Source: a virus. Taken from it: DNA of 54,654 nucleotides. The stretch lies in the IMG/VR virus record IMGVR_UViG_3300034071_001887, positions 1 through 54,654 of that record, one strand, 5' to 3'. Shown here in pieces: positions 12,714 through 46,118 of the stretch. The number at the start of each line of letters is the position of its first letter. The first letter of the stretch is position 1. A model generated the notes under the pieces. The model was not told where the DNA came from, made no database searches, and saw only the letters and a list, made by a program, of their open reading frames with translations. Made by a program: the position numbers and the translations under genes.

Positions 12714-14018
12714 ATGAGTTCTAATGGAAAAATCTTTATACAAATTGCCGCGTATCGCGATCCTCAACTAGTTCCTACAATAAAGGACTGCATAGCAAAC
12801 GCAAAGCATCCGGAAAATCTTGTGTTTTGTATTGCTTGGCAACATTCGCCGGAAGAAAAAATTGATGAAATAAAAGACCTTCCCAATGTAAAAATTATTG
12901 ATATTCCATACATGGAAAGTAAAGGTGCGTGCTGGGCACGCAATCAAATACAGCAGAGATATGAAGACGAAGAATATACATTGCAGTTAGATTCGCATCA
13001 TCGGTTTGTTAAAGATTGGGACGAAGTAATAATTGGAATGTATAAGCAGCTTCAAAAAATGGGACACAAGAAGCCACTGCTTACCGGATATATTCCTTCG
13101 TTTGATCCAGATAAAGACCCAGAAGCAAGAGTACAAACTCCGTGGAGAATGGATTTTGATAGATTTATTCCGGAAGGTGCGGTATTCTTTTTGCCAGCAG
13201 CAATGGACAATTGGAAAGAATTGTCTGCTCCAGTTCCCGCAAGGTTTTATTCTGCACATTTTGCGTTTACAACCGGAAAGTTTTGCAAAGAAGTTCCACA
13301 CGATCCCGAATATTATTTTCACGGCGAAGAAATCAGTATAGCCGTGCGTGCGTTTACTTGGGGGTATGATTTATTTCATCCACATAGATTAGTTGCTTGG
13401 CACGAATATACTCGCAAAGGAAGAACTAAGCATTGGGATGACCACGGCGGTGGTAGTAAAGAAAAAATTCCAGACAAAAAGGATTGGGGAGAAAGAAATT
13501 CTCTATGCCATCGTAGAAATCGTATACTTTTCTCGATGGACGGTGAAAAACACGAAACCATAAAATGGGGAAAATATGGATTTGGAAAAGTAAGAACCTT
13601 GAAAGATTACGAGAAATACGCAGGATTGCATTTCGGAAAGCGTGCAGTTCAACAAGAAACAATAGACAAAACATATCCGCCAAACAAATACCACAAATAT
13701 AAAACAGAAAAAGAATGGGAAGATTCATTCTTGCAGATATTCAAACATTGTATAGATCTTCAAACAAATAGTTTTAAACTAAACGATTATGATTTTTGGT
13801 GTGTTGCTTTTGAGCGAGAAGACAATGGTCAGTTGTACAGACAAGATGCCGATTTGGCTGAGGTTGAACGATTGTTAAAACAAGCCAAAGATCCAAACGG
13901 AGACAAATACATAAAATTGTGGAGAACATTCAACACTTCCGAAAAACCACACCATTGGGTAGTATGGCCGCACAGTAAGTCAAAAGGATGGTGCGATAAA
14001 ATAACTGGAAAATTATAA
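12714..14018 (+). CDS. GT60-like polypeptide N-acetylglucosaminyltransferase
   Basis: A 434-residue cytosolic enzyme. The N-terminus IFIQIAAYRDPQLVPTIKDC, the CIAWQ strand, GACWARNQIQ, and LQLDSHHRF (about residue 90, where DSH serves as the DxD metal site) match the GlcNAc family (PF11397, CAZy GT60). Known members attach GlcNAc to hydroxyproline of Dictyostelium Skp1 or to Thr of trypanosome mucins, using UDP-GlcNAc. Further conserved text: FHGEEISIAVRAFTWGYD. Residues about 354-434 form an added C-terminal domain (FWCVAF...VVWPHSKSKGW) that recurs in the last gene of this operon. The position directly after three Thr/Pro-rich fibre genes suggests those linkers as acceptors; this is inference. 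Confidence 0.85.
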   Translation: MSSNGKIFIQIAAYRDPQLVPTIKDCIANAKHPENLVFCIAWQHSPEEKIDEIKDLPNVKIIDIPYMESKGACWARNQIQQRYEDEEYTLQLDSHHRFVKDWDEVIIGMYKQLQKMGHKKPLLTGYIPSFDPDKDPEARVQTPWRMDFDRFIPEGAVFFLPAAMDNWKELSAPVPARFYSAHFAFTTGKFCKEVPHDPEYYFHGEEISIAVRAFTWGYDLFHPHRLVAWHEYTRKGRTKHWDDHGGGSKEKIPDKKDWGERNSLCHRRNRILFSMDGEKHETIKWGKYGFGKVRTLKDYEKYAGLHFGKRAVQQETIDKTYPPNKYHKYKTEKEWEDSFLQIFKHCIDLQTNSFKLNDYDFWCVAFEREDNGQLYRQDADLAEVERLLKQAKDPNGDKYIKLWRTFNTSEKPHHWVVWPHSKSKGWCDKITGKL

Positions 14019-15217: not shown

Positions 15218-16027
15218 ATGAATACCGCATTACTAGGATTATCCAATAATATATCTGCCAATATTAGTAAGATTGAATTGTGGAGCAAAAGTTTCAAAAA
15301 ACATTGCAATGGAAAAGTGATACTACTTTGTGCCAATTCTTCTGACGAGGAATTAAAGCAGTGCGAAGGTATGGGAATCATACCCATACCGGTGTCGGTA
15401 AAAGACACATGGTATATAAATCACGAAAGACTGAAACATAATTATGAATTTTTAGAAAAAGCGGACGCCGAGTTGATTTTGGTTACAGATGTATTTGACG
15501 TAATATTTCAAGGCAATCCGTTTGAAAAAATGGATTCATCAAATTATGATATATTTGTTAGTGGCGAAGGCGTGCGTGTAGAACAAGAGCCGTGGAATTC
15601 AAATAATATAAACAGCATTTTTCCGGAACATTTTAACAAATGCAAACCGATAGAAATCATAAACTCTGGGATTATTGCCGGTAAAAGAGATGCTTTGATT
15701 AAATTATTCAAACGCATGTATGAACTGTGTGAAGCTGGTTCAAACAACCACAACATTAAAGATCAAGCAGCGTTGATAGTCATGGTTGCAAACAATCAAG
15801 TAGAAAAAATAAAAATATTTAATCTGGATGATGGATGGGCAATGCACTGTGCCGTCGCCGGTCCTACGCAATTTTTTGAGCGTTGGGGATTTAAGCACAA
15901 CATAAAATACGGAATACCGTACATACAGAATGGGTGGGTATTCACAAAAAGTGGAAATAAATATGATATGGTTCACCAATTTAATCGGATTCCAGCTTGG
16001 TACGAAGCAATAAAAAATAATATATGA
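15218..16027 (+). CDS. Glycosyltransferase, GT-A fold, PLOD-like
   Basis: A 269-residue protein. The strand-motif ELILVTDVFDVIFQGNPF (about residues 86-103) carries the Asp pair typical of the GT-A metal site and closely resembles that of the lysyl hydroxylase/glycosyltransferase (PLOD) group. IEIINSGIIAGKRDA (about 145-159) and DQAALIVM fit the acceptor side of the same fold. The donor and acceptor cannot be read from sequence. The start directly follows the upstream stop, and the stop overlaps the next ATG by 4 bases (ATGA). Confidence 0.75.
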   Translation: MNTALLGLSNNISANISKIELWSKSFKKHCNGKVILLCANSSDEELKQCEGMGIIPIPVSVKDTWYINHERLKHNYEFLEKADAELILVTDVFDVIFQGNPFEKMDSSNYDIFVSGEGVRVEQEPWNSNNINSIFPEHFNKCKPIEIINSGIIAGKRDALIKLFKRMYELCEAGSNNHNIKDQAALIVMVANNQVEKIKIFNLDDGWAMHCAVAGPTQFFERWGFKHNIKYGIPYIQNGWVFTKSGNKYDMVHQFNRIPAWYEAIKNNI

Positions 16028-19261: not shown

Positions 19262-19357
19262 TGAAAGTGGTTATGGTTGTCAGTGGCTCCACAAACTGAC
19301 TGGTGGAGGGTGATAAGTCCATCACCCCTAAAGCCCCGCATTTTTGCGGGGCTTTTT
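19262..19357 (+). ncRNA. Candidate structured small RNA or leader
   Basis: About 95 bases between a TTGACA-type promoter and a strong terminator with no good ORF. GTCAGT can pair with ACTGAC, and CTCCAC with GTGGAG, but the two stems interleave and exclude each other. A third stem is GGGTGAT/ATCACCC, then the terminator stem follows. This is the layout of a small RNA or of a switch/attenuator. No known RNA family is recognised. Confidence 0.4.
19331..19357 (+). terminator. Strong rho-independent terminator
   Basis: A 10-bp perfect stem, AAGCCCCGCA/TGCGGGGCTT, with a TTTT loop and a T run. It separates the Hsp20/RNA region from the secreted Ig-protein gene. Confidence 0.93.
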
Positions 19358-19363
19358 ATTATC

Positions 19364-19391
19364 TTGACAAAATGCTGCCTACCATCAATAT
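19364..19391 (+). promoter_or_regulatory. Sigma70-like promoter (good -35, weak -10)
   Basis: TTGACA followed 16-17 bases later by CAATAT/AATATG. The predicted start lies within a few bases of the ATG at 19400, so the message may be nearly leaderless. Confidence 0.35.
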
Positions 19392-19399
19392 GGGCCAAA

Positions 19400-21625
19400 A
19401 TGAAGAACTATATCAAGATACTTTTTTATATACTTGCATTATGCAGTATGGCATGTGCTCAAGACGTTAGTCCAGTTGCTAAAGTTGGTCAGACTGTCAC
19501 CTTTGATGTTACCGCCACCGGAACAGCCCCGTTTACATATCAGTGGAAAAAAGGAGGAACGAATATTGCCGGTGCAACATCTATATCGTATGTGTTAGCG
19601 AATGTTACAATATCGGATGCCGCCGCTTATACCGTGGAAGTTAGTAACTCGTTGGGAAGTAGTCTTTCAAATATTGCAACTTTAAGTGTAGTCAATCCGC
19701 CGGTTTTTACACTACAACCAGTTGCTACTAACGCATCTGTCGCCCAATCTTTTACACTATCATCTCTTGCCACAGGCGACTCTCCACCAACATATCAATG
19801 GTTTAAAAATAATGTTGCTATATCAGGTGCAACATCTGCTACATATACAGTATCATCGGCAGTTCTTGCTGACGCGGGCATATACAAAGTATCAGCAAGT
19901 AATACTGTTAGCGGAACAGTAGTGTCCACGGACAGTAATGCGGTGGCAGTTACTGTCATAGAAGTTTTGGTGCCGCCTATATTTACTACGCAACCCGTCG
20001 CCGCAACGGTAAATCTTACACAGTCATTTACACTATCGGCATTAGCGACCGGCACTCCAACTCCAACATACCAATGGTATAAAGACAACGTCGCTATAAC
20101 TGGAGCAACATCTACATCATATACCGTAAGTTCTGCGGTTAGTGCCAATGGCGGCGATTATAAGGTTGTTGCCACCAATACACTAAACGGAGCATCCAGT
20201 TCAGTTGATAGTAATACAGCAACAGTAACCGTAGTTAGAACTCTTGCGGCACCAATATTTACTGCCCAACCATCCTCCGTGACCATTGATCTCAATCAAT
20301 CATTTACGTTATCTGGGTTGGCTACTGGTACACCAACTCCAACATATCAATGGTACAAAGATGATGTTATTATAACAGGAGCAACTTCTAGATCATATAA
20401 TGTGAGTGCCGCCGCTAGTGCAGACTCTGGTGCGTATAAACTTAGAGCAACCAGTACTATAGATGGTGTATCCAGTTTTACAGACAGCAATACAGCAACA
20501 GTAAACGTTGTTAGAACATTAAAGGCACCTATCTTTACCGTTCATCCTGTTGCTACAAGTGTTGAGTTTGGAAATACACTTACACTATCGTCTTTCGCAT
20601 CAGTATCGGTGTATTATTATACTGTTGGTACAGACAACAATATTTATGAAATCAGCGATACTGGAACAAAGAGGGCTGTGCGAGATGTGTCTACTCTTGT
20701 AGGTGCTACATCAGCAAACGCAATAAACGGAATAGCGTTTGATACTACCCGAGGTCAAGTATTTTTTGCGGCACCTAACCCGAGTGGAAGTGGTCTGGCG
20801 TCTCTGTGGTATTGGAACCAAGCTGCCAATTCTATACCAGTCAATTTAGGGCAATTGACCACCAGCCGACCAGACAACGGAGCATACTGGAATAATGCTT
20901 ATTGGTATATTATGCCGGGCACACATATGCTGGTACGAGTCGCATTACAATATGATGGGTCAGGAACCCCTGCAATGATTTCTAATGGCATTTCGTCCGC
21001 TACGCTCACGGGCGGTATACCTACAACAAACAACAATTATATTGGAGACATAGCCATTACTAGTAATGGTACATTATATGCCACTACTTCCAACGGTTCT
21101 ATGTTTTATAATCTGACTCTGCCGTCTGGTCCGTTAAGTGGTACTATAGCTGCCACCAATATAGGCACAGTTGGTTCTCCGGTAATAGTCAGGCTTCAAA
21201 TCACCTTCGGTCCAGCCGGTTCAACGTTGTATGGTCAATCCTTTGACAATGGTCAGTGGTATACAGTAAACACAGCCAACGGTACATTAACACCACTATC
21301 ATTTAGTACGCTCATTAATGGAGGAACGACTGGATTTCAGGATGTAAGCGGCGTGTCCGCAACGCCTGCCCCACCCGTTACAGATTCTGGAGCAGGTACA
21401 ATATCATATCAATGGTATAGAAATAATGTGGCTATATCTGGTGCTACATTATCGACATACACCGTATCACCAGTCGTAATAGATACTGGCGGAACATACA
21501 AAGTTGTCGCCACACGTACCTTTGATGGAATGACTAGTTCAACGGATAGTAGTTCAGCACTTGTTAATGTTACAGGTATTTCAGCACCAAGTAATGTAAG
21601 AATTATCATACGTTATGGTCCATAA
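19400..21625 (+). CDS. Secreted multi-Ig-domain protein with a nested insertion
   Basis: A 741-residue protein. MKNYIKILFYILALCSMACAQ is a bacterial signal peptide (cleavage after about residue 20), which decides the ATG at 19400; the frame opens further upstream, across the terminator. Four Ig-like domains follow (about 24-107, 109-197, 200-290, 292-380), each with (T)YQW(Y/F)K and YTV/YKV text. A fifth Ig starts at about 381, is interrupted at about 404 by a segment of about 250 residues that looks like a beta-propeller (YTVGTDNNIYEI, IAITSNGTLYATTS), and resumes at about 660 with ISYQWYRNNVAISGA. It is probably exported by the host, perhaps to alter the cell surface. Own promoter suggests a moron-like gene. 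Confidence 0.8.
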   Translation: MKNYIKILFYILALCSMACAQDVSPVAKVGQTVTFDVTATGTAPFTYQWKKGGTNIAGATSISYVLANVTISDAAAYTVEVSNSLGSSLSNIATLSVVNPPVFTLQPVATNASVAQSFTLSSLATGDSPPTYQWFKNNVAISGATSATYTVSSAVLADAGIYKVSASNTVSGTVVSTDSNAVAVTVIEVLVPPIFTTQPVAATVNLTQSFTLSALATGTPTPTYQWYKDNVAITGATSTSYTVSSAVSANGGDYKVVATNTLNGASSSVDSNTATVTVVRTLAAPIFTAQPSSVTIDLNQSFTLSGLATGTPTPTYQWYKDDVIITGATSRSYNVSAAASADSGAYKLRATSTIDGVSSFTDSNTATVNVVRTLKAPIFTVHPVATSVEFGNTLTLSSFASVSVYYYTVGTDNNIYEISDTGTKRAVRDVSTLVGATSANAINGIAFDTTRGQVFFAAPNPSGSGLASLWYWNQAANSIPVNLGQLTTSRPDNGAYWNNAYWYIMPGTHMLVRVALQYDGSGTPAMISNGISSATLTGGIPTTNNNYIGDIAITSNGTLYATTSNGSMFYNLTLPSGPLSGTIAATNIGTVGSPVIVRLQITFGPAGSTLYGQSFDNGQWYTVNTANGTLTPLSFSTLINGGTTGFQDVSGVSATPAPPVTDSGAGTISYQWYRNNVAISGATLSTYTVSPVVIDTGGTYKVVATRTFDGMTSSTDSSSALVNVTGISAPSNVRIIIRYGP

Positions 21626-24933: not shown

Positions 24934-25551
24934 ATGAGTTATAAAATAGTCAAGGATAAAGATTTTCTACATAAGCCAACAACACCTGTATCTTCTATTG
25001 AAGAGGGTCAAGAAATAGCAAACAAGCTTATAGAAACTTTAGATAGTTTGCCTCACGGTGGAGTTGGACTATCTGCCAATCAAATAGGAATATCAAAAAG
25101 TGTTTCTGTTATTAGAGCCAGAAAAGATCAACCGCCAGTTGTGTTGATGAATCCTGTTATAACAGAAGTTAGTAACGAAAATATCATTTATCTTGAAGGT
25201 TGCCTAAGTTTGCCGGGCAAGAGTTGTAATACGATGCGTAAGTTGAAAGTAACCGTCAATACTCTCAACCACGCCAACCCCATCCCATTTGGTCCAGATA
25301 CAAATCCGCCAACAGAAAAGAGCGTATATGACGATGTTGGTATATTAGAAACAATCTGCGTTCAACACGAAATCGACCATCTAAATGGCAGACTAATGAT
25401 TGATCCTGGCGTCAAGTTCATCAAGCCAGTAGAAAAAAAGGTAAAACACGGCAGAAATGATAAGGTTGTTGTGGAAAAAAATGGTGAAACACAATATATA
25501 AAATACAAGAAGGCATTAGAACTCGTGGAACAAGGATGGAAGATACTATGA
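24934..25551 (+). CDS. def: Peptide deformylase
   Basis: A 205-residue metallohydrolase that removes the formyl group from new N-termini. All three motifs are present: GVGLSANQIG (about residues 42-51, motif 1), EGCLSLPG (about 88-95, motif 2 with the metal Cys) and CVQHEIDHLNG (HExxH at about 145-149, motif 3). An insert between motifs 2 and 3 (PIPFGPDTNPPTEKS) is longer than in typical host enzymes. The C-terminal 35 residues are basic. Deformylases are known passengers in cyanophages. Its stop overlaps the start of the acidic small gene (ATGA). Confidence 0.95.
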   Translation: MSYKIVKDKDFLHKPTTPVSSIEEGQEIANKLIETLDSLPHGGVGLSANQIGISKSVSVIRARKDQPPVVLMNPVITEVSNENIIYLEGCLSLPGKSCNTMRKLKVTVNTLNHANPIPFGPDTNPPTEKSVYDDVGILETICVQHEIDHLNGRLMIDPGVKFIKPVEKKVKHGRNDKVVVEKNGETQYIKYKKALELVEQGWKIL

Positions 25552-30212: not shown

Positions 30213-30623
30213 ATGGCAACAATACCACAACCTTATGGAATAACTTTGCCCATAGCACATGGGCCACAGGGGTATTTCAATCAAAGTTATAGCATATTAG
30301 AACAAGTAAAATCAAATCTTAATTTTCTTCTAAGAACGAAAAAAGGAGAAAGAAGAATGAACCCAGAGTTTGGTTCCGGTCTGTGGAATATATTGTTTGA
30401 AAATTATACAGATAACATTACTCCATTGATAGAAGATGTCATAAGAAAAGATATTTCGCGTTGGATGTCTTATGTAAATGTAAACAGCGTAGAAGTAAAC
30501 ACAGACGACACTGAATACAAGGATAAGTATAAAGTTGGAGTTACCGTACTGTTTACTGTGCCAAGCGTTGGTATAACCGATACACAAACGTTGGAAATCT
30601 CGATGAACACCGGAAATATATGA
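30213..30623 (+). CDS. 25: Baseplate wedge protein, T4 gp25-like
   Basis: A 136-residue protein of the GPW/gp25 family. GPQGYFNQSYSILEQVKSNL, then RTKKGERRMNPEFGSGL (about residues 46-62) and NILFENYTDN match the core of gp25, which joins gp6 at the sheath-baseplate interface in T4 and starts sheath assembly. Length is close to T4 gp25 (132). Its stop overlaps the gp6-like start (ATGA), the same gene order as in many contractile systems. Confidence 0.93.
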   Translation: MATIPQPYGITLPIAHGPQGYFNQSYSILEQVKSNLNFLLRTKKGERRMNPEFGSGLWNILFENYTDNITPLIEDVIRKDISRWMSYVNVNSVEVNTDDTEYKDKYKVGVTVLFTVPSVGITDTQTLEISMNTGNI

Positions 30624-32575
30624 TATTAGATACACCAAAATCATTTAAGCCAGAAAATAAAGATATAAAGTATCTAAATAGGGATTTTTCTCAGTTGAAG
30701 CAATCGTTGATGGATTTTGCAAAGACCTACTATCCAAACACATACAAAGACTTCAGCGAAGCATCTACGGGAATGATGTTTATGGAAATGGCGGCGTATG
30801 TTGGTGATGTATTGTCATATTACATAGATTATCAATTCAAAGAATCAATGCTTGTAAATTCCGAAGAACGCAAGAATATTATAGATGCTTCGAAATCGGT
30901 GGGATATAAGGCAAAGGCAACAATACCTTCGGTTACAAAATTGGATGTGTATCAGTTAGTTCCTGCAAAAACGAATGATGCTGGAGAAATTGTCCCAGAC
31001 TTAAATTATGCCCAGATTATAAAACCAGGAATGACGGCAATCAGTGATACCAATGTAACATTTATCACAAATTCTCCAGTAGATTTCACGGTGGATACAA
31101 AGAATGATCCATTGGAAATTTCCGTATTTCAGAGAAACGCCTCCGGACAGCCGGAATTTTTTGTACTTAAAAAATCCGTCGATGCTTTTTCTGGACAGAT
31201 ACTAACAAAAAATGTATCTGTGGCATCACCTGTTCCGTTTTTCAAAATATACTTAGACAATACTAATGTTATAGAAGTTTTAGACGTATATGATTCGGAT
31301 GGTAATAGATGGTACGAGACCGATTATTTGGCACAAGACTTGGTTCCAATAGATTACGAAAACATCTATAAAAACAACATAACGCTGTCTGCTTATCGGG
31401 ACACTACTCCATTTTTGTTGAGATATTTGCGCACATCAAAGCGATTTGTGACGGGGGTGGATGCCGAAAATAATACATTTTTAGAATTTGGTTCAGGAAC
31501 TAGCATAAAAGACGACGAATTAATTATACCAAATGCGTTTACTGTAAACAGACCGACCACGTTTAGATCAGAAAATATTGCATACGATCCATCAAATTTT
31601 CTATCGTCTAAAGCGTTTGGTCAGGCTCCATCAAACACGACGTTGACTATACGATATGTTGTTGGTGGTGGAGTAGAAAGTAACGTAAATGCAAATGCAA
31701 TAAAAAATGTAAGTTCTGTTGAATTTTTCGGAGATTTAACTGAACTCGGTTTGTTAGAATTCAATTTGACCAATTTGGTACGTAGATCGGTGAGAGTAAA
31801 TAATCCAATACCGGCAACGGGCGGAAGAGCCGCAGAAACAAATGACGAGATTCGAAACAACGCACTTGCATACTTTGCTGCCCAAAATCGTGCAGTAACG
31901 CAAGGCGACTATGAAGTAAGAACATATGCAATGCCATCAAAATATGGTTCTATTGCCAAGGTCTATGCGGTAACAGACACTCAGTTGGACATATCAGATA
32001 TACAAGCACAACCATCAACAACACAGACCGGAAGTTTGGCACCAGGTACAACAAATAAGATTGATACGAGTAAAAATAACCCATTTGCTATAAATTTATA
32101 TTTGCTATGTTATGATAACAATCAACGATTGATACCTACTAACGAAGCGGTACGTAATAATCTGAAAAACTATCTAAATCAGTATAGAATGCTTACGGAC
32201 AGCGTGAATATGTTGGATGGATATGTTATTAACATTGGTGTAGATTTTAGCATTATTGTTTATAAAAACTATAATAAGCGTGAAGTTTTGGCTAATTGCT
32301 TAACATTAGTACAGCAATATTTTGACATAAACAATGTAAAGTTCTGTCAGCCAATCAATCTTAGCAGATTGGAACTGGAAATCGCCAAGGTAGATGGAGT
32401 TCAGTCCGTAACTCAGTTGCGTGTAAAAAATCTTACACTAAAAGACGGCGATTATTCTCAGTATGAATATAACATTGAAAGGGCCACTATAGATAAGGTT
32501 ATATATCCATCCATAGATCCATCTGTATTTGAGGTTCGTTTTCCAACAAAAGACATTGTAGGAAGAGTGGCATAA
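30620..32575 (+). CDS. 6: Baseplate wedge protein, T4 gp6-like
   Basis: A 651-residue protein, about the length of T4 gp6 (660). KYLNRDFSQLKQSLMDFAK, STGMMFMEMAAYVGDVLSYY and AVTQGDYEVRTYAMP are hallmarks of the gp6/J-like family. In T4, gp6 dimers form the inner ring that holds the wedges together and contacts gp25, the preceding gene here. The C-terminal part contains INLSRLELEIAKVDGVQSV, typical of the family. A TATTTATA box follows it for the next unit. Confidence 0.93.
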   Translation: MILDTPKSFKPENKDIKYLNRDFSQLKQSLMDFAKTYYPNTYKDFSEASTGMMFMEMAAYVGDVLSYYIDYQFKESMLVNSEERKNIIDASKSVGYKAKATIPSVTKLDVYQLVPAKTNDAGEIVPDLNYAQIIKPGMTAISDTNVTFITNSPVDFTVDTKNDPLEISVFQRNASGQPEFFVLKKSVDAFSGQILTKNVSVASPVPFFKIYLDNTNVIEVLDVYDSDGNRWYETDYLAQDLVPIDYENIYKNNITLSAYRDTTPFLLRYLRTSKRFVTGVDAENNTFLEFGSGTSIKDDELIIPNAFTVNRPTTFRSENIAYDPSNFLSSKAFGQAPSNTTLTIRYVVGGGVESNVNANAIKNVSSVEFFGDLTELGLLEFNLTNLVRRSVRVNNPIPATGGRAAETNDEIRNNALAYFAAQNRAVTQGDYEVRTYAMPSKYGSIAKVYAVTDTQLDISDIQAQPSTTQTGSLAPGTTNKIDTSKNNPFAINLYLLCYDNNQRLIPTNEAVRNNLKNYLNQYRMLTDSVNMLDGYVINIGVDFSIIVYKNYNKREVLANCLTLVQQYFDINNVKFCQPINLSRLELEIAKVDGVQSVTQLRVKNLTLKDGDYSQYEYNIERATIDKVIYPSIDPSVFEVRFPTKDIVGRVA

Positions 32576-39540: not shown

Positions 39541-40635
39541 ATGATTTTCAAGCAATTTGACGCAACCGATATAGTAGCAGGAAGATCCCAGCCAGTATCT
39601 ACCGGCGTTTGGAGCGATGGAGAAACTTCGTGGTCTCAATTTTACACGAGCAGTGCTCAAACTGTAGTGTCTTCTTCGGCATTTGAACCACTTAACGGAC
39701 TGTATTATACGAATGTGTATGACTACCCAATCGCGTCTGCCAGTGCTGAAATTTATTTTTCTTTGACTTATGGTCATTATGCTGGGTCCGGTTCTTCTAC
39801 GTTTGACACTAACATTTCTCAGGGCAGTTTGATTTATCCAACCAAAGCGATATACAACCAATATAGAAATTTATTACTGGCACCGGGAGATTCAAAATTC
39901 TCATTTATTCAATCCGATGCACTTGGTAATCAAACTTCGGTAGATTCGAACGACATATATGCGATGGCGTTCAGGAGTACGAAGTACAAAGACAGAATAG
40001 ATCCCGGCCAATTTGAAATGACTCTAAGTGGATCTTTGGGAACAATCACTATAATCGATGATTCAAAAGATAATCCAGATACAGCAACTCAAACCGGTGG
40101 CAAGAGATACAATCTTATTAGAGGAACCATCGCAAATGGAGCAATTCAAACTAGAAATTACGAGGCAATAGGGTCTATGTATCCGGACCTTGGAATAATA
40201 GTATTAAATCCTACTTCTCTTAAAAATTTAATTGGTCCTGTAGATGGATATTCGCTGAACGACCCTGTAAACGGATGGGGAGGTCAGTTTTCAAGATTGC
40301 AAAACGTGCTATTTACTTCTATCAAAAAAGGTGCGATCATTTCTTCGATGAAAGCCAGAGTGACGGAGTATGTACCTGCTCGTCATTATTTTGTTCGCGT
40401 CAAGAATCAGGAATACAACTACAGCAATAATCCTACATTTATTATATCCGATTCTACAAGTGCAGATTATGGCAAACTAAGATTCAGTGATTTCTATACA
40501 GATCCAAAAGTGTATATCACCACCGTGGGACTATATAACGAAACAAATGATCTTGTTGCCGTAGCAAAGTTGAGTCAGCCATTGCTAAAAGACTTTACTA
40601 ACGAGTGCCTTATAAAAATCAAGATAGATATATAA
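39541..40635 (+). CDS. Tail/baseplate structural protein, paralog of the next gene
   Basis: A 364-residue protein. The N-terminus (MIFKQFDATDIVAGRSQPVS) and C-terminus (RVKNQEYNYSNNPTFI, then YITTVGLYNETNDLVAVAKL) are both homologous to those of the 1078-residue gene downstream (MLKQFSAGDITIRP; EFNYSINPTAL; FITTIGLYDGNELVAVGKL). It is the short, probably ancestral form. The C-terminal GLYN(E)..LVAVAKL segment recurs in structural proteins of marine T4-like phages. No enzymatic motif. Confidence 0.7.
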   Translation: MIFKQFDATDIVAGRSQPVSTGVWSDGETSWSQFYTSSAQTVVSSSAFEPLNGLYYTNVYDYPIASASAEIYFSLTYGHYAGSGSSTFDTNISQGSLIYPTKAIYNQYRNLLLAPGDSKFSFIQSDALGNQTSVDSNDIYAMAFRSTKYKDRIDPGQFEMTLSGSLGTITIIDDSKDNPDTATQTGGKRYNLIRGTIANGAIQTRNYEAIGSMYPDLGIIVLNPTSLKNLIGPVDGYSLNDPVNGWGGQFSRLQNVLFTSIKKGAIISSMKARVTEYVPARHYFVRVKNQEYNYSNNPTFIISDSTSADYGKLRFSDFYTDPKVYITTVGLYNETNDLVAVAKLSQPLLKDFTNECLIKIKIDI

Positions 40636-40677: not shown

Positions 40678-43600
40678 ATGCTAAAGCAGTTCTCCGCAGG
40701 GGATATAACAATAAGGCCGTTCAATACGTTCAAGAACTGGAAAGTTCAAAGCGTTGATTCGTCTTCTGTTGATGCATATGGATATAGCACATATTACGAT
40801 CAATTTTGCGAGATAAACGAAGGCAAGAAAATATCATCGATTTTTTATCCAACTGGCAGTCCATATTATTCCGCGTCGTTGGAGCCAATCAATCCTTCTG
40901 GAAAATACGCAAGAAACATATATAGTCTCACCGACGCTATGTTTTATAGAAGCAAGAATAACTTCACGGAGTTGTTTGGCGTAGAAAGCTATAAAACCGA
41001 GAAGGCTACCGGAAAAAGAGAAATAAGAAATATAAATGATAGAGTTGTGTCGTTGGCACTAAATCATAACGCATTTGGTGACAAGGTAAGACCAAATTCA
41101 GTTGTAATTACAGACAACTCAAATCCACACGAAGAATACAGGATATTGGACGACGGATATACAAATTTGTATGTCAGCGGTTCTCATTTTTCTACATATA
41201 CAACTTTGGGTGGAGTAAAAAATGTATATGCTAGACCATACTGGGATACTTCAAGTTATTTTGAATATTATTTGAATTTGGGAGATGGTATTACTAGAAG
41301 TATAGATTTAATTTCGGCAAAAGAATATGCCACAATTGGAATGAATGTTTCGTTTGTTGGAACGGCATCAATTTTATTTGAAAGTAGTTCGGTTGTTGAC
41401 AATTTCCAATCGGAAAATGAACATTTTGGAGAATCGGTTAGTTCGTGGTACAAATACGTGGCAGTCGGGTCTTCCATTGACAAATATAGTTTATATAGAC
41501 CCGCATTTGGATATGCGGCAATATTCAAATACGACGATGGTATGGGTGTCCATAGATTAGTTAAAAAATTTAATTGTCCGTTCACCGCGTCTGGGTTTTT
41601 TACGGATTTTGACGTAGATGATACATTTCCATATTCTACGTCTTCTGTTTTGGAAAGTTCATCATATTATTCCGATACTTTCGGGCAATCTGTGTGTGTG
41701 CGTGACAATTTTTTGGTAGTAGGTTCTTCTTCCGGTTCAATATGCTCTTCTAGTTCTTTCTTTCCTGGATATGTATTCGTTTATCAGCAAGATAAAGGTG
41801 GTATAGACAATTGGGGAATGATCAACATACTGCAAGGTGCAACGGATAATGATCACTTTGGACATTCTGTCGCCGTGGATGGAGATATTTTGGCGGTAGG
41901 TGCACCAAATGTCAGTGGATCTGGAGCGGTTTATATTTTCAGAAAAAAAACGTATTTTAGTAATGGCTGTGATAATATAGAAACCAGTTCTTTTTGGCAA
42001 ACTGTGGACGTGAGTCAGAGTTTTTGTGAACAAATACTTTCTCAGTCTAGCTCGTTTTCCGTGTACAACAATCGGTCAGCCGCGTCCGGAGCATTGTCCG
42101 GTAGTTATACTTGGGTATATGAAGCAGTTGTTACGTCTAGTATATTAGCTTCCGGTGATAGATTTGGTTGGTGCGTTTCTTTGGATTCTGGAAGTTTAGT
42201 CGCGGGAACATACAAAAGTGGAAATGGCTATGCCGCAGTATTTACTTGTTCATACTATTCCGCTTCATATGGAGAATGTCCCACAGCTTCTTGGAGCGAA
42301 TATAAGATACTTAGAAGAGATAATACATACGGAGACTTGGACATGTCTCTTGCGCTATACAACAACGATGTTACTTCTACCGAAATAACAACGGATGGAT
42401 TCGGAACATCAGTTGCAATAAGCTATCCCACGATTGTTGTCGGGTGTTTGAGTGACAAAGCATTTATCCCATATTCCACATATTCTGGGGATCCGTCTAT
42501 TCTCGGCGCAGCATATTTTTACAGATACATGCCTCAATGTGGAACTTCTAGTTACTGGAAAACTCTGAAAACGTTCGGTGACAGGCAATATACAAAAAAT
42601 AATAATTTTGGAAAATCTGTGTCTGTTGATGGAAATTTTGCTGCGGTAACATCTTGGTCCGACACAACCGGTACAAGCGTCGATTATGTTGATGGACAAT
42701 ATGTATTACAAAATTATTCATACGCTTCAACTTCGTCCGAAGATACGTCCGGAGTATTGGGTAGAGTAACTGTATATAATTATGACGATGCGTCGGATGC
42801 TTGGAAACTGACAGGCATGATAAAGCGAAACAAAGAAGCATACAAACCAAGTAATATTTATGGATATTCTGTCTGCGTTTGTTCTGACTTTTTGACGGTT
42901 GGTGCACCTGTTGTACACCTTGCCACAGCCTCGGCCACAGAGTCTATTTCTGACCCAAATAACTTACTGGGGTTTCCATCAAATTGTTCCGGTTCAGTTT
43001 ATGTTTATAATCTTAGCAATTACCAGACCAGCCCATTAATCGGAAATGTATTTTATAAGAATGGATATTTTGTATTAACAAATACATCGTCCAATTATTA
43101 CAATATATTCACTGGTACAGGTTCTCGTGGATTTGATTTAAACTATCAAGGTTCTCATACAATATACGAGCACGAACATCTAATTTCTATTAGACCAGGA
43201 GAATTTAATTATAGTATTAATCCTACTGCACTTGTGCAAAGCTCATTGTTGTTTGACGTAAATCAAGATGGAGTTTTTGATTTTCTTGATGTCGATTTGA
43301 TAATGCGGTATTTGCAAAAGAGAAAATTCTTTGAAGAATTCGTGTTTGACGATAATGGAATTATATTGGAACAAGATAGTCTCAAAGATTATAGTTGGTG
43401 GAATAACGATGTATTACAACTCGAGTCCGAGGATGTGCTGTTACTTGAAAGCAATGAAGCGGCATATTTGGCAAGCTCATCATTTAACGCATTTACTAAG
43501 ACGGCGTTTGATTATATAGAAAATACTTTAGTAAACACAGGCATTCTTGATATTGATGGTGACGGAAAAATAAATTTAAATGATGGAAACATACTTTCAC

Positions 43601-43914
43601 TGTATTATCTTCAGCTTCTTACACCAGAAAAATTAGAATTACTAATTAGTGACGATTCTACGCGCAGATATGTAAAGGAAATAAAAGACTATTTGAACAT
43701 ATATTGCCGCAGTGATAATGCAAAAGTAAATCCATATTTCTTGGAATATCAATATAGTTCATCGTATGATCCGACCGGTTCATATTTGGCTCCTTTTATA
43801 ACAACTATTGGACTGTATGATGGGAACGAACTGGTGGCGGTTGGTAAATTGGGAAGACCTGTAAAAAATCTAATTGATTGGCCGGTCAATATTGTCGTTC
43901 GTTTTGATACATAA
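40678..43914 (+). CDS. Tail protein with seven-blade FG-GAP propeller and EF-hand/dockerin-like motifs
   Basis: A 1078-residue protein. Its N- and C-terminal parts match the preceding gene. Inserted between them (about residues 250-785) are seven FG-GAP-type units, starting FGESVSSW, FGQSVCVR, FGHSVAVD, FGWCVSLD, FGTSVAIS, FGKSVSVD and YGYSVCVC, each followed by a hydrophobic (L/V)AVG-like strand and a V(Y/F)xY strand. Seven is the number in an integrin-type propeller. Within the C-terminal domain lie two calcium-loop motifs, DVNQDGVFDFLDVDLIMRYL (about 860) and DIDGDGKINLNDGNI (about 957), like EF-hands or dockerin repeats but about 100 residues apart. A host-surface binding role is likely; this is inference. 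Confidence 0.8.
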   Translation: MLKQFSAGDITIRPFNTFKNWKVQSVDSSSVDAYGYSTYYDQFCEINEGKKISSIFYPTGSPYYSASLEPINPSGKYARNIYSLTDAMFYRSKNNFTELFGVESYKTEKATGKREIRNINDRVVSLALNHNAFGDKVRPNSVVITDNSNPHEEYRILDDGYTNLYVSGSHFSTYTTLGGVKNVYARPYWDTSSYFEYYLNLGDGITRSIDLISAKEYATIGMNVSFVGTASILFESSSVVDNFQSENEHFGESVSSWYKYVAVGSSIDKYSLYRPAFGYAAIFKYDDGMGVHRLVKKFNCPFTASGFFTDFDVDDTFPYSTSSVLESSSYYSDTFGQSVCVRDNFLVVGSSSGSICSSSSFFPGYVFVYQQDKGGIDNWGMINILQGATDNDHFGHSVAVDGDILAVGAPNVSGSGAVYIFRKKTYFSNGCDNIETSSFWQTVDVSQSFCEQILSQSSSFSVYNNRSAASGALSGSYTWVYEAVVTSSILASGDRFGWCVSLDSGSLVAGTYKSGNGYAAVFTCSYYSASYGECPTASWSEYKILRRDNTYGDLDMSLALYNNDVTSTEITTDGFGTSVAISYPTIVVGCLSDKAFIPYSTYSGDPSILGAAYFYRYMPQCGTSSYWKTLKTFGDRQYTKNNNFGKSVSVDGNFAAVTSWSDTTGTSVDYVDGQYVLQNYSYASTSSEDTSGVLGRVTVYNYDDASDAWKLTGMIKRNKEAYKPSNIYGYSVCVCSDFLTVGAPVVHLATASATESISDPNNLLGFPSNCSGSVYVYNLSNYQTSPLIGNVFYKNGYFVLTNTSSNYYNIFTGTGSRGFDLNYQGSHTIYEHEHLISIRPGEFNYSINPTALVQSSLLFDVNQDGVFDFLDVDLIMRYLQKRKFFEEFVFDDNGIILEQDSLKDYSWWNNDVLQLESEDVLLLESNEAAYLASSSFNAFTKTAFDYIENTLVNTGILDIDGDGKINLNDGNILSLYYLQLLTPEKLELLISDDSTRRYVKEIKDYLNIYCRSDNAKVNPYFLEYQYSSSYDPTGSYLAPFITTIGLYDGNELVAVGKLGRPVKNLIDWPVNIVVRFDT

Positions 43915-44748: not shown

Positions 44749-44800
44749 TTACCGTTTTAGTATTATACCTATTAACATAACCTTTTAACAATATATCATT

Positions 44801-45274
44801 ATGACAAGAAGCGAACTAAAGCAATTGATTAGAGAAGTAATTGAAGAAGCGAATGGAAAATATTGGGACGTAGATGAGCCACTTCGCGATTCGGGGTTTA
44901 ATATCATCGTTGGAGACGCAATTCCAAAAAAAGAGTGGTTTACGTCATACGTAAATCACATATATTACAACAAAGAAGAAGATTTTCTACGATTGGATGG
45001 TCATTACAAAACTATGGACGAACAGGGAAAAGGAAAGTTTGCAATTTTTGTTCGTGGTTTTATGAAAGGTGGAACGAGAATTGATGCCGAGACTCTTGGA
45101 GATACTAAAGGTCATTGGGGTGGAGACTTAAAAGATACAACTTCGGGAACAGCGAAACACAGCTTGTATCTAAGCGATAAGGCAAAACGGGTACTTAAGT
45201 ATATACGTGAAGTGATTAAAGCAGAAAAATACGACGAATTGGCATCTGGAATACACCAAGTTTCAAGTATGTAA
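44801..45274 (+). CDS. Hypothetical protein with shared N-terminal peptide
   Basis: A 157-residue alpha/beta protein. The first 16 residues, MTRSELKQLIREVIEE, are nearly those of the papain-like gene at 22543, though the bodies are unrelated. The rest contains DGHYKTMDEQGKGKFAIF and KAKRVLKYIREVIKAEKY. No family recognised. The shared head may be a targeting peptide; IRE fits the IxE/LxE rule of T4-type prohead protease sites, so it could be a capsid-packaged protein. It ends at a strong terminator. Confidence 0.7.
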   Translation: MTRSELKQLIREVIEEANGKYWDVDEPLRDSGFNIIVGDAIPKKEWFTSYVNHIYYNKEEDFLRLDGHYKTMDEQGKGKFAIFVRGFMKGGTRIDAETLGDTKGHWGGDLKDTTSGTAKHSLYLSDKAKRVLKYIREVIKAEKYDELASGIHQVSSM

Positions 45275-45280
45275 AAATAA

Positions 45281-45306
45281 AACCCGCCAAATACGGCGGG
45301 TTTTTT
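45281..45306 (+). terminator. Rho-independent terminator
   Basis: An 8-bp perfect stem, AACCCGCC/GGCGGGTT, with a 6-base loop and six T residues. Confidence 0.93.
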
Positions 45307-45354
45307 ATTGTCAGAAATTTTTATATTTTTCAGTCGTTTATTATCAGTCATTTA

Positions 45355-45362
45355 TATTTATA
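45355..45362 (+). promoter_or_regulatory. TATTTATA box (putative late promoter)
   Basis: Perfect octamer ending 14 bases before the ATG at 45377, downstream of a terminator. Confidence 0.5.
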
Positions 45363-45376
45363 GTAAAGGTCATATT

Positions 45377-45538
45377 ATGGGAAGAAAAAAACTATACATA
45401 ACTGAAGATGAACAACGAGACGCAAAAAGCCAACGCAACAAGCGATACTACGATAAACACAAGCAGCGTATCAACAAAGACGCAATGCGAAGATACTATT
45501 CCAAAAAAGATAGTGGGGATTTACGGGTTGCGAAATAA
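45377..45538 (+). CDS. Basic N-terminal region probably split from the GIY-YIG gene
   Basis: A 53-residue basic ORF (MGRKKLYITEDEQRDAK, then NKRYYDKHKQRINKDAMRRYY). Repeated basic (K/R)xYYxKHKxx text is common at the N-terminus of phage homing endonucleases. It ends in frame 0 just inside the start of the GIY-YIG domain, which is read in the +1 frame. The switch falls at a run of six A (45503-45508). A one-base indel would join both into one protein, so this is either a broken gene, a programmed frameshift, or a sequencing error. Confidence 0.5.
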   Translation: MGRKKLYITEDEQRDAKSQRNKRYYDKHKQRINKDAMRRYYSKKDSGDLRVAK

Positions 45539-46118
45539 GACAACTGGTAAATGGTATGTTGGGCAGAGCATTGATATAGAGGATAGATGGAAATATTACA
45601 AAAGGTTAAAATGTAAAGGACAGCCAAAAATCTATAATTCATTGCTGAAATATGGGTATGATGGCTTTGATAAAATCATATTGGAAGAATGCTCTTCTTG
45701 CCCAAAAATGTTGGTGGAGCGAGAAATATTTTGGGTCCAGAAATATAACTCAATAATAGATGGGTACAATATTAGAAACCCAGACTTGCGGTCTAAATTC
45801 AGCGATGAAACGAGAGCAAAAATAACCGCATCTAAAACGGGTAAAAAATACAAGCCTCGTAGCGAAGAAGCGAGAAAAAATATGTCTGCCGTACTTCGTG
45901 GAGAAAAGCATCATTTTTATGGCAAGAAATTTTCCGAAGAACATCGTGCTAAATTAAAAAAAGCAAAACGGGTCATTTCGGAAGAAACTCGTAAAAAGAT
46001 GTCAATGGCCGCGAAAAATAGAACGCCCCCGAGTGAGGAGTCGCGGCGTAAAATGTCCGAAGCATCAAAGAACTATTGGGCAAATATGAGATTGACATCC
46101 GCCGCCAGTATCCCATAA
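45408..46118 (+). CDS. GIY-YIG homing endonuclease with NUMOD3 motifs
   Basis: Up to 236 residues. The GIY-YIG domain starts at about residue 37 (IVGIYGLRNKTTGKWYVGQS) with the later Arg (DIEDRWKYY) and Glu (MLVEREIFW) of the catalytic site. Three to four NUMOD3-like DNA-binding repeats follow (FSDETRAKI, RSEEARKNM, ISEETRKKMS, PSEESRRKMS). It is of the T4 Seg type, a free-standing selfish nuclease that spreads between phages. The first 35 codons overlap the basic ORF in another frame and may not be translated; GTG at 45513 is an alternative start. It sits between a terminator and the primase gene. Confidence 0.85.
   Translation: MNNETQKANATSDTTINTSSVSTKTQCEDTIPKKIVGIYGLRNKTTGKWYVGQSIDIEDRWKYYKRLKCKGQPKIYNSLLKYGYDGFDKIILEECSSCPKMLVEREIFWVQKYNSIIDGYNIRNPDLRSKFSDETRAKITASKTGKKYKPRSEEARKNMSAVLRGEKHHFYGKKFSEEHRAKLKKAKRVISEETRKKMSMAAKNRTPPSEESRRKMSEASKNYWANMRLTSAASIP

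Follow-up and report, generated by a model that had tools for sequence, protein, structure and literature searches.

The closest structural counterparts of the protein described here are the heads of integrin alpha subunits (for example PDB 7nwl and 3fcu), which consist of seven FG-GAP-type blades. Among phages, T4-like cyanophage S-TIM5 encodes a 'virion structural protein' (AEZ65754, 407 aa) with an FG-GAP_2 propeller of six PF14312 repeats. Synechococcus phage S-MbCM6 carries FG-GAP repeats embedded in a 'gp8 baseplate wedge protein' of about 7,000 aa, the gene of which adjoins gp10 and gp7. This gp8-annotated gene is 21 kb in length (JN371768, nt 50779–71847), and the FG-GAP repeats lie at about aa 3980–4250 of the stretch read. 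In the 'baseplate wedge subunit' of S-H9-1 a single chain bears a LamG-like segment as well as FG-GAP-like repeats, and Vibrio phage nt-1, also T4-like, has a protein that GenBank names 'FG-GAP repeat protein' (AGN30308).

When the S-TIM5 propeller was used as a tblastn query over 50,697 phage records, at least 21 records matched, among them one 'FG-GAP repeat protein' and others that their annotation assigns to the virion structure or the baseplate. A BFVD fold search also detected FG-GAP propellers in other viral proteins. None of the papers found in a literature search treats FG-GAP in phage tails. The module is rare in phage tails but known in annotation. The original prediction, made from the DNA letters alone, had called it unusual in this setting; it is indeed rare there, but not new.

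Genomic setting and the seven-bladed propeller

The stretch of DNA analysed here (the window, 54,654 nt) is from a T4-like myovirus of a lake, and carries genes for gp25- and gp6-like wedge proteins, an SbcCD-like protein, a RuvC-like resolvase and a late sigma factor. Of the phages with names, those closest to it have Microcystis and Flavobacterium as hosts, and two related long contigs have no psbA. Elsewhere in the window, a 782-aa protein (nt 19277–21625) matches several families of Hoc-like head decoration proteins and of major tail proteins and is apparently a string of Ig-like domains, two regions match glycosyltransferases (nt 12714–14018 and 15218–16027), and another matches peptide deformylase (nt 24934–25551).

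About 8 kb downstream of the genes for the gp25-like (nt 30213–30623; phrog_261, E = 1.2e-17) and gp6-like (nt 30620–32575; phrog_219, E = 1.3e-19) baseplate wedge proteins is an intact ORF of 1078 aa (nt 40678–43914), which is on the plus strand, as are the wedge genes and all features of the locus described below. Profiles, alignment and model divide its product into a scaffold, an FG-GAP_2 propeller and a split, dockerin-like EF-hand module. It directly follows an ORF of 364 aa (nt 39541–40635) that carries the C-terminal motif of the scaffold and is a partial scaffold paralogue without insertion; the predicted fold of this upstream ORF had no match in the PDB. The corresponding gene pair of Flavobacterium phage immuto has a baseplate wedge gene on one side and, on the other, genes annotated as tail fibre/spike. 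The product had been predicted to be a phage tail protein with a place on the baseplate. Synteny does put the gene in the tail/baseplate block, and by the same synteny the protein would be located on the baseplate.

Pfam FG-GAP_2 (PF14312) matches the 1078-aa protein with an E-value of 2.1e-22 (79.5 bits against a curated cut-off of 23 bits, five stretches reported) and is matched by all 20 aligned homologues (49–91% identity to the propeller protein), while the classical FG-GAP family (PF01839) remains below threshold (10.3 bits, cut-off 22.1). The propeller extends over aa 240–782 (nt 41395–43023), so that the range of residues 240–790 put forward for structure prediction was right. It displays seven motifs of the form [FY]G.[SC][VI], compared with a mean of 0.2 and a maximum of 3 in 2000 shuffled copies of the protein. 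By motif, held-out profile and model, blade 1 comprises aa 240–304 (nt 41395–41589, FGESV at aa 250), blade 2 aa 331–388 (nt 41668–41841, FGQSV at aa 335), blade 5 aa 570–632 (nt 42385–42573, FGTSV at aa 575), blade 6 aa 638–718 (nt 42589–42831, FGKSV at aa 644) and blade 7 aa 723–782 (nt 42844–43023, YGYSV at aa 728). Blade 3 (aa 389–430; nt 41842–41967; motif at aa 394) contains the best PF14312 stretch, and is also defined by held-out profile and model. Its outer strand is probably at aa 477–485, and comparison of homologues shows the loop at aa 431–476 to be an insertion hotspot. Blade 4 (aa 488–546; nt 42139–42315; FGWCV at aa 496) is defined by motif, profile and model. When a profile built from six units was scored against the seventh and compared with 999 shuffles, six of the seven units exceeded all shuffles (19.5–42.0 bits, with a shuffle maximum of 14.4). 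The weakest, unit 4, failed this comparison (10.2 bits against 14.8 for shuffles), and is accepted as a blade because of its motif, position and predicted strands. All seven units are retained in nearly all of the 20 homologues.

An AlphaFold2 model of the 1078-aa protein, based on the 20-sequence alignment, has a mean pLDDT of 57.5 and a pTM of 0.55. Core blocks of the propeller are mostly at pLDDT 70–94 and the scaffold parts mostly below 50; a single good model for the whole protein was for this reason rejected, and only the propeller and the EF helices were read from it. Between aa 250 and 780 the model has some 27 strands, which fall into seven groups the size of a blade, mostly with four strands each. 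Foldseek retrieved integrin alpha heads as the best PDB matches (E = 8e-10, probability 1.00); 173 matches had E-values of 0.001 or better, and the 50 best listed are almost exclusively integrin alpha subunits. For the best integrin heads the TM-score by target is only 0.45–0.56, with an rmsd near 8 Å, so the overall fold is clear and ring closure and geometry are inaccurately modelled. By sequence, a profile of the propeller alone gives weak but significant matches to integrin alpha-4 (E = 1.8e-5) and alpha-L (E = 9.7e-4). Taken together, motifs, held-out profiles, Pfam and strand groups confirm the predicted row of seven FG-GAP-type units, and the fold matches support the predicted integrin-like propeller. 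Calcium-binding DxDxDG loops were not found within the blades; the EF-type pattern is confined to two positions beyond the propeller, aa 860 and 958. Judged by sequence, the blades belong to FG-GAP_2 and lack the calcium loops that integrins have.

A scaffold with two insertion slots

Besides the lack of calcium loops in the blades, the original prediction overlooked two features of this gene: the propeller has been inserted into a scaffold that also exists without it, and it is accompanied by a dockerin-like EF-hand module. When profiles of the parts of the gene were searched across all loci, the propeller appeared as a cassette, in slot 1 of an otherwise uncharacterised scaffold. The scaffold N-part (aa 1–236; nt 40678–41385), which was traced by these searches and has low model confidence, is present also in propeller-less homologues. 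The middle part (aa 784–856; nt 43027–43245) is highly conserved (GNVFY...HTIYEHE...FNYS.NPT), and the C-part (aa 1018–1078; nt 43729–43911; ITTIGLY...AVGKLGRP) is common to the upstream paralogue; both were delimited by alignment and profiles. Between them lies slot 2 (aa 857–1012; nt 43246–43713), with the EF-hand module recognised by PF00404, loop pattern and predicted helices. The scaffold matches nothing in Pfam, the PDB, PHROGs or NCBIfam. T4 gp8 and other solved baseplate proteins were rejected as its counterpart, as neither fold, profile nor sequence gave support, the S-MbCM6 protein annotated gp8 included.

Among homologues that occupy this position behind the same neighbour, the content of the segment between the scaffold N- and middle parts varies. 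Slot 1 is without recognisable domain insertion in 17 distinct proteins of 336–427 aa (17–94 aa in the slot), is occupied by Laminin_G_3 in three loci (L086, L093 and L152; E = 1.6e-15 to 2.7e-6), and holds the propeller in the relatives of the window. Exchange of binding-type domains at a single site is typical of phage receptor-binding proteins, and the present family likewise combines a conserved anchor with a slot that is empty or carries LamG or a propeller. In relatives of marine type (1472–2495 aa) the propeller is interrupted by hundreds of residues, mostly after blade 3. In five loci (L072, L073, L074, L076 and L077) the gene is split close to where scaffold and propeller meet, and the scaffold N-part of two of them (L072 and L077) continues as a protein of its own, 1114–1359 aa long.

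Slot 2 measures about 163 aa and includes the EF module in the window family, whereas in propeller-less proteins it is only 10–65 aa and lacks EF loops. EF loops were found in this slot only in the propeller-bearing group. Loci L072 and L074 have a propeller and a slot 2 of 145 aa, the loops of which no longer fit the EF pattern, and two loci scored as propeller-negative (L176, L179) proved to be fragments of propeller-bearing genes. Since the sequences are related, the association of propeller and EF module may reflect a single acquisition. Two distant marine relatives carry a LysM domain in the same region, which in L083 (aa 1235–1278) lies between the two EF matches and in L081 occupies aa 1916–1959.

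Candidate functions of the propeller protein

The domains and the order in which they stand, the pattern of insertions and the synteny were observed; from them we infer a baseplate-proximal virion protein in which the propeller is a host-binding, adhesive head and the EF pair its brace or dock, a reading to which we assign, as a whole, a probability of roughly 0.62. The three scaffold parts would anchor the protein to the tail, the propeller in slot 1 would most likely bind some structure on the surface of the host bacterium, and the EF pair in slot 2 would most likely brace the propeller or dock it to the scaffold in a calcium-dependent manner. This reading is supported by the seven units and integrin-like fold, found both by model and by sequence, by the position of the gene after the gp25/gp6 block and of the immuto pair among wedge and fibre/spike genes, by the exchangeable content of slot 1 together with the LysM domain between the EF loops in marine relatives, and by the restriction of EF loops in slot 2 to proteins with a propeller. 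The distribution of variability also favours it, as the loops between blades are the most variable (mean pairwise identity 0.29 between blades 1 and 2, 0.43 between blades 3 and 4) and the scaffold C-part the least (0.80).

Evidence of selection counts against this reading. Estimates of dN/dS, with many synonymous distances saturated, are mostly 0.05–0.2 in propeller and scaffold alike, with no sign of positive or diversifying selection over the two, and propeller distances correlate closely with scaffold distances (r = 0.93). Both results point to a propeller that is under purifying selection and travels with the scaffold, and within the clade of the window the head is thus stable, not swapped. 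The lack of database matches for the scaffold, and its poor model, count on the same side. Low dN/dS and correlated distances would also fit a propeller that serves the baseplate structurally or protectively, as a space filler, a wedge stabiliser or a dock for another phage protein, and makes no contact with a host receptor. Its obligate co-occurrence with the EF module and the existence of scaffold members without any head would fit such a role, and FG-GAP_2 propellers are also found in bacterial proteins of unknown role, so that ligand binding, which the original prediction had proposed, is not implied by the fold. Against a structural role stand the unrelated adhesion-type folds (LamG) in the slot of relatives and the loops between blades, which are the least conserved parts; this alternative is considered possible but rather unlikely.

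Other features of the comparison concern the history of the locus. Over nt 42600–43200 the window is 95–100% identical to two related loci (L005 and L007), against mostly 70–92% in the flanks, and dS is near zero in blades 6 and 7, which suggests recent recombination inside the gene; this segment is a probable recombination tract. Identity to the same two loci is very low at nt 44800–46100, between well conserved flanks, and genes may have been replaced there. No close bacterial donor of the propeller was found, the best matches in genome contigs being 22–34% identical and spread over many phyla.

The Dockerin_1 profile (PF00404) matches in the whole-protein scan with an E-value of 4e-5 (24.2 bits against a cut-off of 22.9), each match corresponding to one repeat, and was detected in 19 of the 20 homologues. 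Taken literally, this match would imply a module that docks a separate cohesin-bearing partner, as in cellulosomes, and a protein that serves as an adaptor recruiting a phage or host protein; the upstream ORF even shows a weak cohesin match (E = 0.33, or 0.002 in a one-genome search). But the two calcium loops (aa 860–871 and 958–969) are 98 aa apart, far from the arrangement of tandem dockerin repeats within some 60–70 aa, and the cohesin match was rejected, being sub-threshold (13.7 bits against 24.1) and absent from six other records searched, relatives included. An adaptor of this kind is improbable. Still less credible is a protein acting outside the virion, in or on the host cell, for although the FG-GAP protein of nt-1 is encoded outside the tail genes, among hypothetical ORFs and a nicotinate phosphoribosyltransferase, the propeller of the window forms a single protein with a scaffold that shares synteny with baseplate/tail genes.

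The reading as a host-binding head can be extended, tentatively and with considerable doubt, to a two-slot tail scaffold shared by freshwater and marine T4-like phages, in which propeller and split-dockerin EF module were acquired together and form one calcium-dependent adhesive head. If true, a phage tail would recognise bacteria by means of the fold of metazoan integrins, with calcium bound outside the propeller.

Comparison with known propeller carriers

The host-recognition parts of uncultured myophages are mostly unannotated. The scaffold family, itself without a Pfam, PHROG or NCBIfam match, has slots in which domains of adhesion type are exchanged (LamG, LysM, FG-GAP propeller, dockerin-like EF pair), and can be used to search the T4-like phages of lakes and seas for candidate receptor-binding proteins.

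Integrin alpha heads are 10–14% identical to the phage propeller, which differs from them in having no DxDxDG calcium loops in its blades and no beta subunit and in being embedded in a phage scaffold. The S-TIM5 protein shares about 25% identity with a relative of the window propeller but is encoded by a free-standing gene, without scaffold or EF module, and that of nt-1 is likewise stand-alone and lies outside the tail block. The carriers in S-MbCM6 and S-H9-1 show no similarity to the window scaffold, which suggests independent recruitment; the carriers of the integrin-type propeller among phage tail genes are thus of at least two unrelated kinds. Conversely, Microcystis phage Mel-JY01 (WWT39517) and Flavobacterium phage immuto (QQO92083) encode members of the same scaffold family, at the same place after one or more paralogous genes, but in Mel-JY01 LamG replaces the propeller, in immuto there is no recognisable insertion, and both lack the EF module. 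Compared with all of these, the window is new in its two-slot scaffold and in having a propeller paired with a split, dockerin-like module.
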